DNA of 32,750 nucleotides from Clostridia bacterium (GTDB lineage Bacteria; Bacillota; Clostridia; Oscillospirales; QAMX01): positions 1 through 32,750 of the forward strand of contig JAFQKV010000045.1 of the NCBI GenBank assembly GCA_017414715.1, given 5' to 3'. A program made the translations under genes and the position numbers. Of the stretch, positions 3 through 32,746 are shown piece after piece; the stretch's first letter is position 1; the number at the start of each line of letters is the position of its first letter. The notes beneath the pieces are model-generated. The model was not told the DNA's origin. It did no database searches and saw only the letters and a list, made by a program, of their open reading frames with translations.

Positions 3-290
3 GTGCATTTGTTTTCCTTTTTTACTTTTGAGCTTAAGCTTTTCTCCAAACATATTTGGATAAGACGTATGGTAGTAATAGCATTCAGCCTTTTAGTCAT
101 GTTTGTAGGCGGATATATATTTGGAAGCACTCGCTTTGAACTTAAGAGTTTGGTCGTTTATTGTATTGCAGCTTTGATTTTTACTATGGTTATTGTATTT
201 GCATATTATGTTGCTGATAAGATCGAACAACGGAATCTAAATTTAATCAATCAAAAGCTTAGTGAGAAGAATAAAGGTAATATAGAATAA
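3..290 (+). CDS. small AT-rich membrane protein, possibly 5'-truncated by the window edge
   Basis: I do not recognise this 95-residue protein with confidence. It opens with a GTG codon two bases from the window edge, so the true start may lie upstream. Two hydrophobic segments, about residues 22-42 and 49-70, are followed by a charged tail (DKIEQRNLNLINQKL) that would be cytoplasmic. This is the layout of small two- or four-helix membrane proteins; a DUF3021-like C-terminus is a weak guess. Codon use is strongly AT-rich (TTT, TTA, ATA, AAA), unlike every other gene here, which points to a different origin. A GC-rich hairpin begins six bases after the stop codon. Confidence 0.5.
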   Translation: MHLFSFFTFELKLFSKHIWIRRMVVIAFSLLVMFVGGYIFGSTRFELKSLVVYCIAALIFTMVIVFAYYVADKIEQRNLNLINQKLSEKNKGNIE

Positions 291-295
291 AAATC

Positions 296-323
296 GCCCC
301 GCCTCGCGCGGGGCTTCGCTTTT
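296..323. terminator. GC-rich terminator hairpin, probably bidirectional
   Basis: A perfect 7-bp stem (GCCCCGC at 296-302, GCGGGGC at 308-314) with a five-base loop follows the stop of the first gene. Reading plus, it runs into TTCGCTTTT. Reading minus, it runs into GATTTTTATT. It can therefore end the AT-rich gene and also back up the minus-strand terminator at 377-406. A second, 8-bp hairpin lies directly beside it at 319-336. Confidence 0.6.
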
Positions 324-376
324 GTGTCCACAAAAGCAGTGCTTGTCAAGAAAATTGACACGGCATAGATGAACAT

Positions 377-406
377 AAAAAAGGCTCCCTTTACAGAAGG
401 GAGCCT
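377..406 (-). terminator. intrinsic terminator, minus strand (degV transcript)
   Basis: A 10-bp perfect stem (382-391 with 397-406, loop 392-396) is followed, reading minus, by five T residues (381-377). This is a textbook Rho-independent terminator for transcription coming from degV. It has no T-run in the plus direction. It lies about 180 bases past the degV stop codon, so the degV mRNA should carry an unusually long structured 3' tail. Confidence 0.75.
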
Positions 407-408
407 CA

Positions 409-517
409 TTACCGCCCGACAGTACATCTAAAAGGTGTAACACACTATACCTTGCAGGCAAGGCGTGTGAAAAGGAGCACGGACATTTTAGTTCGTACTC
501 CTTTTGTCGGTAGGTAA
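409..517. ncRNA. candidate structured RNA or element: compact four-way junction
   Basis: The DNA folds into four helices with almost no unpaired bases between them. P1 pairs 409-421 with 505-517 (11 of 13 pairs). P2 pairs 423-428 with 434-439. P3 pairs 441-445 with 465-469, with an inner stem 450-455/458-463. P4 pairs 470-483 with 492-505 (13 of 14 including one G-U; its last pair competes with P1 for 505). Strand is unresolved: G-U pairs slightly favour plus, but only the minus strand has a terminator immediately after it (406-377). It could be a 3'-UTR-derived small RNA of degV, an independent ncRNA or a miniature mobile element. No protein-coding signal is visible. Confidence 0.45.
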
Positions 518-582
518 AATCTGCTTTATGGAAGGCACCCCTTCCCGTCCTTTTGTTGTTGATTTAGAAAACAGTCCTGTCT

Positions 583-1470
583 TCAGGCGCTGCGCGTATC
601 TCCCCAGAAGAAGACGGCAACGGTACCAGGACCCGTATGGCTGCCGATGGTGGTTCCGATGTTGTTGATGAGCACGGGTCCGTCAAGGGAGGGGAAGGCT
701 GCTTCAATCATATCGGCCACCGTGCGGGCATCCTCTATGCAGGCGGAATGGCAGATATAGCACTTGCCGCTGTAGGCGGTGCCGCCCTCCGCGTGGGTCT
801 TCATGCGCTCGACGATCTCTGAGATGGCCTTCTTCTTGCCGCGCAGCTTAGCCCGGGGGATAAGACGGCCCTCGTGGTCCATATTCAGAAGGGGACAGAT
901 GTTGAGCAGCCCGCCGAAAATGCAGGAGGCGCGGGAGATGCGTCCGCCGCGGAAATAACTGGTCAGATCAGTGGAGAAGAACCAGTGGTGCAGCCGAAGC
1001 TTTTCGGCCTCCGCAAAGGCATACACCTCGTCGATGCTGCGGCCGGCATCCCGCAGATCGGCAAGCTTATCTACAAAAAGGCCGCTGCCGGAGGAGGCTC
1101 CGAGAGAATCAACGATAAGAAGCTTCCGATCGGGAAAACGCTCGGCGGCGATACGCGCGGCATTCGTTGCAGAGTTGAAGGAGCCGGAAAGACCGGAGGA
1201 GAGGCATACGTGCAGAACGTCAAGCCCCCGGGAAAGGTAACCGGAGAAGAAGTCGAGATACTCCGAGATGTTCACCTGTGAGGTTTCGGTCACGGCACCG
1301 CGGGAAATGGCGGTATAGAACTCGTCGTAGGAAAGGGTCTTGCCAAGGTCATCGGTGTATGCCTTTCCGTCTACCGAATAATGGAAACTTAAAAAGGGTA
1401 CGTTCCGGCGAGCAAGATGCTCCCCGGAAAGATCGACGGTAGAACAGCAGCTGAGAATGAACTGTGACAT
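583..1470 (-). CDS. degV: DegV family fatty-acid-binding protein
   Basis: DegV/FakB proteins are soluble two-domain proteins that hold one fatty acid, and several present it to a kinase (FakA) for phosphorylation into phospholipid. The 295-residue length is typical. Family marks are an N-terminal strand ending in CCSTVDL, the central HVCLSSGLSGSFNSA loop that contacts the carboxylate, the basic stretch around RGGRISRA, and the C-terminal GTTIGSHTGPGT signature. The start is supported by AAAGGAG upstream of the ATG and by a good promoter at 1513-1541. No fakA is present in the window, so the fatty-acid role is family knowledge. Two direct repeats ACTCTATT (1550-1557, 1583-1590), 33 bases apart, lie upstream of the promoter. 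Confidence 0.9.
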   Translation of the reverse strand: MSQFILSCCSTVDLSGEHLARRNVPFLSFHYSVDGKAYTDDLGKTLSYDEFYTAISRGAVTETSQVNISEYLDFFSGYLSRGLDVLHVCLSSGLSGSFNSATNAARIAAERFPDRKLLIVDSLGASSGSGLFVDKLADLRDAGRSIDEVYAFAEAEKLRLHHWFFSTDLTSYFRGGRISRASCIFGGLLNICPLLNMDHEGRLIPRAKLRGKKKAISEIVERMKTHAEGGTAYSGKCYICHSACIEDARTVADMIEAAFPSLDGPVLINNIGTTIGSHTGPGTVAVFFWGDTRSA

Positions 1471-1667: not shown

Positions 1668-2240
1668 TTATTTCTTGCGCTTGAGGATGTGATGGCTTAA
1701 GAATACGATGGCCTCAGCCGGGGCAAGGAGCAGAAAGATCTTCCAGGGGGTATAGGCCCGGAAAATGTAATAGATGAGCAGAAACAGCGAAAGCACCAAT
1801 GCCGCAACGATGTACTGATTTGCCCGGCGGTCAAACCACAGGGCGTTCAGAATGAGCATGGCCGTCAGAGACACGGGAAGCGCCGCAATGAAGAAAAGCC
1901 AGACCGGCTTTTCAATCATCCAGAAAATGACGAAGAGCAGCAGCGCCAGCGTCCAGATTCCGAGCTGGACCACAGCGGTGATATTTGCGGTGGAGACATG
2001 GAAGCGGGCTTCGCACTTCTGCCAGCCGCCGTGAGGCTCGGTCAGATCCTCGGGAGAGACACCGAGCGCGGCGGCAATGCTTTCAATGACCGCCGGGGCA
2101 GGCATGGCATCGGCCCGTTCCCATTTGGATACGGATTTGTCGGAATAATTGATGCGCTCCGCAAGCTCGGCCTGGGTCAAATGGGCTTCTGTCCGCAGGC
2201 GGATGAGATTGGAGGCGAAAATAAGCTTTCTTTCTTCCAT
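1668..2240 (-). CDS. XRE-family HTH regulator with C-terminal membrane domain
   Basis: The N-terminal ~65 residues form a Cro/CI-type helix-turn-helix (LTQAELAERINYSDKSVSKW). The rest holds four hydrophobic segments (about residues 84-105, 109-128, 138-156 and 160-185) and a basic tail, so this is a membrane-tethered DNA-binding protein. Such proteins usually sense an envelope or small-molecule cue, but the ligand is unknown. I chose the ATG at 2240 over the upstream in-frame ATG at 2312 for two reasons. GAGGAG lies just before 2240, and the promoter at 2284-2312 would start transcription downstream of 2312. It is monocistronic, with a terminator 16 bases beyond the stop. It is divergent from the sepF operon, with promoters about 50 bases apart, so it could regulate that operon; this is inference. 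Confidence 0.8.
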   Translation of the reverse strand: MEERKLIFASNLIRLRTEAHLTQAELAERINYSDKSVSKWERADAMPAPAVIESIAAALGVSPEDLTEPHGGWQKCEARFHVSTANITAVVQLGIWTLALLLFVIFWMIEKPVWLFFIAALPVSLTAMLILNALWFDRRANQYIVAALVLSLFLLIYYIFRAYTPWKIFLLLAPAEAIVFLSHHILKRKK

Positions 2241-2283
2241 GGAAACTCCTCGTACAGGGGTGGGTGAAATCAATACACAATAA

Positions 2284-2312
2284 ATTATAACAGAAAAAAC
2301 AGGCGCACGCAA
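2284..2312 (-). promoter_or_regulatory. sigma-A promoter of the XRE gene
   Basis: Reading minus, TTGCGT (2312-2307) and a perfect TATAAT (2289-2284) lie 17 bases apart. The start point falls near 2277, about 37 bases before the ATG at 2240. Confidence 0.75.
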
Positions 2313-2341
2313 GACTTTGAAAAGAATGAGAAAAAAGGCCG

Positions 2342-2391
2342 ACCGATTTTTAACGGAATCGGTTGTTTTGAGCAGATGAATATGTTATAAT
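2342..2391 (+). promoter_or_regulatory. promoter of the sepF operon with overlapping dyad
   Basis: TTGTTT (2363-2368) and TATAAT (2386-2391) are separated by 17 bases. A 7-bp dyad, ACCGATT (2342-2348) and AATCGGT (2357-2363), ends on the first base of the -35 box. It could be an operator, possibly for the divergently encoded XRE protein; that link is inference. Confidence 0.7.
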
Positions 2392-2441
2392 CTATAGATA
2401 GAAATCGTTTATGCTTCAGCGTCGCAAAGGAGAGTGAGCAA

Positions 2442-3662
2442 ATGGTCCGGAAACTGTCGGGAAGCGAAAAGACGGCCATTGTTCTGACGGCCTTTGTGAT
2501 GCTCCTGATGGTGCTGGCGCTTGTGATCGGCCGGTCGGTCATCGCCGGCGGAAATCATATCACCACCACCGTTGTGGAGTATGACACCGTGCGGGATACC
2601 GCGGAGGCGGAGGGTCTGGTCATCCGGCAGGAGAAGGCTCTCTCTGCGTCCGGCGGACAGTATGGTCTTCTGCTGGCGGCGGATGGTGAGAAGGTGGCGC
2701 AGGGGGACGAGGTCGCGCTGCGGTTTTCCACGGAAAGCCAGCTTGCGGCGCACCGGGAGGCCCAGCGTCTGAAGGAGGAAATCGAGCGCCTCCGTGAGGT
2801 CAAGGCCACCGCCGGTCGGGATTCCGATCTTACCGGTGTCAACGAGCGGCTGTATGAATCCCTGCTGGGGCTTTCTGCGGCGGCGGAACGTGGCAGCGCA
2901 GGGGATATTTATGCTGACCGTGCGCTGGATGCCATTGTGCTGCGCAACTGTATTCTGGTTGAAAACTACGACATCTCTGCCCGTATCACAGCGTTGGAGA
3001 ATGAATATGACCGCCTTGTGCGTGCCGCCGGGGGCGGAAGCTACGTGCGTGCACCCTCTGCAGGGTATTATTCTGCGGCTTCTGACGGATACGTTGGCCG
3101 CCTGCTTTACAGTAAGGCGGAGCAGCTGGATACGGCGGAGCTGCTTGAACTGCGCAGGTCCGTGGGAGCGGTTTCTCCCGACACCGCGGGTACGCTCATC
3201 TTCGGATATGAGTGGTATTATGCGGCGCTTCTTGCAGAAGCGGATGTTAAAACGCTGCGGGAGGGAAGAACCTACGCTCTTTCCTTTGCGGATTTTGAAG
3301 TTAATGGGACCCTGGTGCGTATGGGAACACCCGCTGAAGGGAAAGTCCTGTGTCTGTTTTATATCAATACCCGCCTGGAGCGAGCCGTATCCATGCGTGA
3401 GGTCTCGGCGGAAATCGTGTTTGACACCGTATCGGGTTACCGTATCCCCAAAGCAAGCCTGCGCGTCAGTGCGGAGGGCAAGCGCGGCGTATACGTCATA
3501 CGCGGACAGCGCTGCGTCTTTATGGAAGTGGACATCCTGTTGGAAAAAGACAATTACTATGTCGTCCGGGCCGACCTTACCGACAACTCCGGTCTGTATC
3601 TTTATGATACGCTGGTGCTGTCCGGAAAGGATCTGTACGACGGTATGGTGATCAATAATTAA
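2442..3662 (+). CDS. HlyD-like membrane-anchored protein of the sepF locus
   Basis: A 406-residue protein with one N-terminal membrane anchor (about residues 12-34, after a short basic cytoplasmic tail) and a large extracytoplasmic part. This part resembles HlyD/membrane-fusion adaptors. A lipoyl-like half (EAEGLVIRQEKALSA, GGQYGLLLAADGEKVAQGDEVA) is followed by a helical hairpin (about residues 100-190) and a C-terminal beta domain with an RIPKASLRV strand typical of these proteins. No transporter lies beside it, so it is unlikely to be a conventional export adaptor. Similar genes are common just upstream of sepF in Clostridia, which suggests an envelope or division role. The start has AAAGGAGAG 7-8 bases upstream. 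SepF begins 11 bases after its stop. Confidence 0.7.
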   Translation: MVRKLSGSEKTAIVLTAFVMLLMVLALVIGRSVIAGGNHITTTVVEYDTVRDTAEAEGLVIRQEKALSASGGQYGLLLAADGEKVAQGDEVALRFSTESQLAAHREAQRLKEEIERLREVKATAGRDSDLTGVNERLYESLLGLSAAAERGSAGDIYADRALDAIVLRNCILVENYDISARITALENEYDRLVRAAGGGSYVRAPSAGYYSAASDGYVGRLLYSKAEQLDTAELLELRRSVGAVSPDTAGTLIFGYEWYYAALLAEADVKTLREGRTYALSFADFEVNGTLVRMGTPAEGKVLCLFYINTRLERAVSMREVSAEIVFDTVSGYRIPKASLRVSAEGKRGVYVIRGQRCVFMEVDILLEKDNYYVVRADLTDNSGLYLYDTLVLSGKDLYDGMVINN

Positions 3663-32507: not shown

Positions 32508-32583
32508 GGGAGCATAGCTCAGCTGGGAGAGCATCTGCCTTACAAGCAGGGGGTCACAGGTTCGAGCCCTGTTGTTCCCACCA
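32508..32583 (+). tRNA. tRNA-Val (TAC)
   Basis: A 76-base cloverleaf with acceptor GGGAGCA/TGTTCCC, discriminator A and encoded CCA. The anticodon TAC is at 32541-32543, flanked by TCTGC/GCAGG. It is the first of three tRNAs behind one promoter. Confidence 0.96.
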
Positions 32584-32589
32584 GAATTT

Positions 32590-32666
32590 GGCCTGGTAGT
32601 TCAGCTGGTTAGAACGCTAGCCTGTCACGCTAGAGGTCGTGGGTTCGAGTCCCATCCAGGTCGCCA
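32590..32666 (+). tRNA. tRNA-Asp (GTC)
   Basis: A 77-base cloverleaf with acceptor GGCCTGG/CCAGGTC, discriminator G and encoded CCA. The anticodon GTC is at 32624-32626 between CTAGC and GCTAG. It lies six bases after tRNA-Val. Confidence 0.97.
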
Positions 32667-32670
32667 ATAT

Positions 32671-32746
32671 GCCTCTGTAGCTCAGTTGGTAGAGCAGTAG
32701 ACTGAAAATTTACGTGTCGCTGGTTCGATTCCGGCCGGAGGCACCA
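32671..32746 (+). tRNA. tRNA-Phe (GAA)
   Basis: A 76-base cloverleaf with acceptor GCCTCTG/CGGAGGC, discriminator A and encoded CCA. The anticodon GAA is at 32704-32706 between GTAGA and TTTAC. It ends four bases before the window edge, so the array may continue. Confidence 0.97.

Follow-up and report, generated by a model that had tools for sequence, protein, structure and literature searches.

Among the described elements that come closest to the one reported here, MTnSag1 (tISSag10) and tISCpe8 are small mobilizable transposons of the IS1595 type (PMC5704250). MITEs are regarded as hitchers of transposable elements, and MITEs and oriT-only hitchers are listed as separate kinds (PMC11389934). 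With respect to transfer origins, MobM of pMV158 contacts 5'-AAGtaTAGTGTG-3' in the right hairpin arm beside the G/T nick (PMC5863519). The locus analysed here lies in a 32,750-nucleotide stretch of DNA from a Clostridia bacterium (contig JAFQKV010000045.1, assembly GCA_017414715.1), hereafter the window, in which a strongly folded stretch adjoins degV. This folded stretch is no new RNA gene; it forms the conserved left end of a mobile DNA element, small and enzyme-free, which has inserted into the loop of the degV terminator.

The minus strand from 517 to 409 forms four helices round a junction, with an RNA minimum free energy of -45.7 kcal/mol (z -6.77; none of 200 shuffles folded as well), and as DNA the same stretch yields -22.2 (z -5.42 in the shuffle comparison); folding of the broader region 370-530 gives z -7.1. 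An intrinsic terminator with a T tail follows on the same strand (hairpin 407-381, tail to about 377). Both the four-helix fold at 409-517 and the minus-strand terminator at about 407-377 had been proposed in an earlier note on this DNA, and both are borne out. The note had recognised no named RNA family, and the Rfam search agrees in that no family for the element was returned at gathering or loose thresholds, the sub-gathering matches being at chance level; PyrR, the L10 leader and the Phe leader, which appeared among the loose matches, were rejected as chance hits.

The element extends beyond the folded stretch, from 540 to past the contig start. Read on the minus strand, a terminator arm is followed by the terminal repeat, hairpin B, the predicted oriT, a variable middle (modules D and E) and the cargo, whose 3' end faces module E. 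The features of the window copy are as follows:

583..1470, minus: degV, host gene with the interrupted terminator (Pfam DegV PF02645, E 3.6e-57)
542..556, minus: left arm of the split host terminator, ACAAAAGGACGGGAA, a perfect 15-bp complement to TTCCCGTCCTTTTGT; the terminator is intact at the orthologous site in genome G001
541..543, minus: position of the target duplication, AAG here and AAC at the other end (agreement at 2/3 bases); the 3-bp register comes from the shuffle test
521..540, minus: left terminal inverted repeat, GGGTGCCTTCCATAAAGCAG, kept across copies; right-end counterpart (reverse complement) GGCGTACCTGCGATAAAGCAG
470..505, minus: hairpin B, a 15-bp stem flanked by an A-run and a T-run, resembling a bidirectional terminator; a hairpin is present here in 53 of 54 copies
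435..469, minus: predicted MobV-type oriT, CACACGCCTTGCCTGCAAGGTATAGTGTG/TTACAC, predicted nick 441/440 (by match to the footprint of MobM and its G/T nick, PMC5863519, and to sites upstream of mobV genes)
416..420 (right arm) and 506-510 (left arm), minus: junction helix P1, not kept in all subfamilies
377..407, minus: module D in its short form, here an intrinsic terminator; many copies have a long, nested palindromic form
292..360, minus: module E (CTTGACAAGCACTGCTTTTGTGGACACAAAAGCGAAGCCCCGC...), which recurs between module D and the cargo and includes a GC-rich hairpin
3..290, plus: 3' part of the gene for a cargo membrane protein (complete at 140 aa in element L086)

The target-duplication position shares two bases with the terminator arm, and the second arm of the degV terminator, TTCCCGTCCTTTTGT, is found on contig C17 of the same genome, past the other end of the element. 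C17 also contains a LytTR gene and a right end of this type, and the missing right half of the window element appears to lie on it. That C16 and C17 join is inferred from their matching terminator arms, with support from the empty site in G001, at which the sequences of the degV and C17 sides lie next to each other. A complete element of the window type (L086, 1375 bp) occupies another locus in a second genome and comprises the same left end, the membrane protein, a LytTR regulator (6.8e-23) and the right end GGCGCACCTGCTTTATCGCAGGTACGCC. Its membrane protein is nearly identical to the window frame 3-290 when the two sequences are compared by eye, and the membrane protein had no match in Pfam. 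The window copy probably carries the LytTR/membrane-protein pair, of which the frame 3-290 is the end. Module D (AGGCTCCCTTTACACAAGGGAGCC, with longer versions bearing TCCGTCACGG.. arms in L011, L051, L086 and others) is a repeat with a variable interior, and the window terminator is a short form of it. In L072 and L075, the sequence past the oriT core holds an apparent insertion-sequence end and a transposase-like frame (IS30-like by eye), suggesting that an insertion sequence has entered module D. Several copies (L003, L004, L006, L072, L075 and L089) contain a further, distinct palindromic repeat, either GTAGGGCGG...CCGCCCTAC or GTAGGGGCG...CGCCCCTAC, nested in the interval from the terminal repeat to hairpin B.

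The search for further copies in the same genome that the earlier note had advised found partial ones on six other contigs, at 81-88% identity. Near full-length copies occur in other genera and families, with identity of up to 88%, and a copy in another order of Clostridia also reaches 88%. The pattern of the oriT hairpin was found at no fewer than 116 further places in Clostridia genomes of the GTDB collection (at least 116; the records are titled Clostridia, Oscillospiraceae, Clostridiales/Eubacteriales, Bacillota or uncultured bacterium, together with Angelakisella massiliensis). Since flanking DNA within the same genus is merely 85-90% identical, an 88% match of a non-coding element across orders points to horizontal spread. 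DNA searches of phage and plasmid collections returned no match to the element. Many copies lie at contig ends, as is expected of repeats that break assemblies. The copies L002 and L012 adjoin an apparent tRNA gene end, and a tRNA cluster is located at the end of the window (32508-32743).

Not all parts of the fold are equally conserved. Across 54 copies, 91-98% of cells are paired in hairpin B and in both oriT stems, compared with 63-79% in P1 and 80% in P4. Pairs with two-sided change show no excess (9 versus 7.3 in shuffles), while cells with two-sided change number 25 versus 13.1. The arms of hairpin B differ between the two subfamilies, and L006, L046 and L054 have a third arm type. Subfamily 2 lacks the left arm of P1, P4 and a terminator after the oriT block. 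The four-way junction described in the earlier note therefore stands as a fold of this copy but not as a conserved unit; the kept units are hairpin B and the oriT hairpin, and the junction is no hallmark of the family. The pairing pattern itself cannot tell DNA from RNA.

The ends of the element bear terminal inverted repeats of the GGCGNACCTGCGATAAAGCAGGT type (left AAGGGGTGCCTTCCATAAAGCAGGT, right, as reverse complement, TTGGCGTACCTGCGATAAAGCAGGT), and the right end is palindromic, its 11-bp arms enclosing a loop of 6 nt. Among 46 complete elements, the left flank is typically an A-run with a stem arm, and the right flank the complement of that arm with a T-run. Flank complementarity averages 9.8 versus 6.5 for re-paired flanks (Mann-Whitney p 1.6e-13), although in part of the elements it is no better than in the control. 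When element flanks were joined and sought in relatives, three orthologous empty sites were identified in the same-genus genome G001, each of them an intact short-loop terminator:

G001, site occupied in the window: AAAGGACGGGAATTTTTCCCGTCCTTTA
G001, site occupied on contig C69: GGAAGCACCCCCATCGGGGGTGCTTC
G001, site filled in genome G002: AAAAGAGACCGGAACTTCCGGTCTCTTTT

A 3-bp duplication is exact in 8 of 16 elements of subfamily 2 (1.7 expected; 0 of 20000 shuffles; a single register). The signal is weaker in subfamily 1, to which the window copy belongs (8/28, p 0.013), partly because the target there is nearly always AAx. The 3-bp flank repeats and the empty terminators are marks of transposition, and the family shows what characterises a MITE, namely terminal inverted repeats, a target duplication, and dispersed copies with empty sites. 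A tyrosine-recombinase att site, brought to mind by the 11-6-11 palindrome, was set aside as the ends are inverted and the 3-bp duplication is present. Terminator targeting is not confined to one family: a second terminator-inserted family with an unrelated type of terminal repeat (ends TAGGGCTGTACTCTTAAGGACAGTTTG / CAAACTGTCCTTTAAGGATACCGTCCTA; contig C107 at about 34708-36322, or L230 at about 1709-3323) holds, in the window's own genome, the terminator that in G002 is filled by the first family. The single cargo gene of this second element reads like what we take to be a glycerol-3-phosphate dehydrogenase. The literature searched contained no report of terminator-loop targeting as an element preference.

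The folded stretch is not the 3' UTR of degV itself, as a short ordinary terminator occupies the same place in the same-genus genome. Of the three options that the earlier note had offered, a processed small RNA, an independent ncRNA and a miniature element, the miniature element is the right one: dispersed copies with target duplications, named beforehand as the sign that would speak against an RNA gene, are what was found. Strongly folded intergenic repeats such as 409-517 can be explained by a mobile element and may be mistaken for ncRNAs.

The block 469-435 reads CACACG-CCTTGC-ct-GCAAGG-TATAGTGTG-TTACAC and has the layout of a MobV-type oriT, in which a stem-loop (here CCTTGC-ct-GCAAGG) precedes TAGTGTG and the dinucleotide G/T of the nick (TATAGTGTG-TTA). 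The same layout is located approximately 80 nt upstream of the annotated mobV of a Listeria plasmid and, allowing one mismatch, ahead of the mobV of a Bacillus badius plasmid; two clostridial contigs have it in front of Mob_Pre genes, and in Angelakisella it lies near a frame that reads like a serine recombinase. The exact motif was absent from the other MobV plasmids examined (Staphylococcus, Campylobacter), so the window-type block represents one class of MobV oriT. Judged by sequence and predicted fold, the helix at 435-469 is a likely pMV158/MobV-type oriT. Its conservation in the large copy set is biased because those copies were baited with the block. Among the 25 elements found through their terminal repeats, 22 carry it, at 82-262 nt from one end, although the bait had led to some of these genomes as well. 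In L289 (3480-3732), an element of 252 bp has the terminal repeats at both ends but no oriT, and it directly adjoins a larger oriT-bearing one; the oriT is not essential to family membership. No Mob_Pre relaxase was detected in the window's own genome, which is about 92% complete, so a helper is either absent or outside the assembly.

The 46 complete elements divide into 28 short, non-coding ones (<700 bp, mostly about 330 bp) and 18 with cargo (0.8-3 kb); in 17 of the 18, the cargo is oriented opposite to the oriT. Examples run through Pfam indicate mostly XRE-type regulators, along with AraC, MerR with a hydrolase-like frame, LytTR, GNAT and RDD proteins, and no transposase, relaxase or integrase was seen in this census of the 18 cargo-bearing elements. 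A non-exhaustive search by terminal repeat, which covered the window's own genome, 245 genomes from its order, 19 named genomes, IMG/VR and one genus from a different order, likewise found no transposase with these ends and returned only cargo of the above and similar kinds. MITEs usually have a parent transposase with matching ends, but need not. In L171 (1500-3023), a terminal repeat is followed by a TnpV-family frame (PF14198, 1.5e-31); it was rejected as the transposase because TnpV is not one. We take it to be of the kind known from Tn4451-like elements, and it may possibly be a link to helpers.

Taken together, it is highly probable that the family consists of non-autonomous, MITE-like elements that insert into the loops of intrinsic terminators, carry a MobV-type oriT, are either non-coding or cargo-bearing, and are both moved and mobilised in trans. 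A transposase supplied in trans would move the element within a genome, the MobV relaxase of a co-resident mobilizable element would nick the oriT, and the nicked copy, or the replicon holding a copy, would be transferred by conjugation. Hairpin B and module D would stand in for the interrupted terminator, and such replacement by the element's own terminators would leave little cost of insertion to the host. To judge from its sequence, the element looks able to hitch-hike between gut bacteria on the enzymes of its helpers. That it is a plain MITE, whose oriT-like block is a relic or a promoter with no role in transfer and whose spread between species is due to other routes such as phages, plasmids or transformation, seems unlikely. 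The block does contain a promoter-like TTCACA-16-TATAGT, the own genome has no relaxase and the element has no match in plasmid or phage collections; however, conservation continues beyond the -10 box and across the nick site (TATAGTGTG/TTAYAC), albeit in copies baited with this block, a stem lies inside the would-be promoter spacer, as in MobV oriTs, and the oriT is kept in most elements found by their ends.

The palindromic right end, the hairpin targets and the cargo frames without a recombination enzyme could also belong to integron-like cassettes, for which a recombinase would read the folded palindromic ends and the terminator hairpin and insert into the loop with no classical DDE transposase; the second, unrelated terminal-repeat type, with its single cargo gene in a terminator that the first family fills elsewhere, would fit as well. 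We nevertheless consider this improbable, given that terminal inverted repeats together with a duplication fixed at 3 bp usually point to a DDE transposase and that no recombinase of any kind is linked to the elements. Least probable is a small RNA of about 60 nt, transcribed from a promoter at 471-444 on the minus strand, starting at about 437 and ending at the terminator at about 377: the strong fold, the promoter-like match and the terminator downstream of it would suit such a transcript, but the copies are dispersed repeats, and subfamily 2 has neither the terminator after the block nor the P1 left arm and P4.

If the trans-mobilised MITE-like element is the right reading, transposition in trans and conjugation in trans would be joined in elements down to about 300 bp, providing a route for single regulator genes between families of gut bacteria, and terminators are predicted to be insertion hot spots. 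In the literature searched, no terminator-loop-specific element with a built-in MobV oriT was described, which is not in itself proof of novelty.

The window family shares with MTnSag1 and tISCpe8 a small size, terminal inverted repeats, cargo and the lack of a relaxase, and conjugal mobilisation in trans, reported for those two (PMC5704250), is likely here. However, those transposons encode a transposase, generate 8-bp duplications, show a preference for AT-rich targets and have an oriT inside a cargo gene that is probably fortuitous (PMC5704250), whereas the window family has no transposase that was seen, a 3-bp duplication, terminator-loop targets and a dedicated MobV-type oriT unrelated to theirs. 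Like MITEs, the family includes non-coding forms of about 300 bp with terminal repeats and many copies and would depend on a helper transposase; in contrast to MITEs, it has an oriT, cargo-bearing versions and terminator-loop landing, and no parent transposon was found. With iOriT, or oriT-only integrative hitchers (PMC11389934), it shares an oriT without a relaxase and the need for the MOB of a helper, but it is multi-copy, very small, transposon-like at its ends and devoid of an integrase. The sequence layout and the G/T nick position are those of the pMV158 MobV oriT (PMC5863519), and the clostridial Tn4451-type IMEs L084 and L085 share the oriT block; pMV158 and these IMEs encode a relaxase, the IMEs also a serine recombinase, while the window family has neither, and the integrase and relaxase of a canonical Tn4451-like IME are both missing from the 18 cargo-bearing elements. 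More tentatively, and with somewhat less than even confidence, gut Clostridia may harbour a pool of enzyme-free cassettes with palindromic ends, a conjugative origin of their own and often a regulator gene, delivered specifically into terminator loops by a trans-acting enzyme. Such a pool, if real, would parallel integron cassettes, with the difference that transfer origins are built in and that safe landing sites exist genome-wide.
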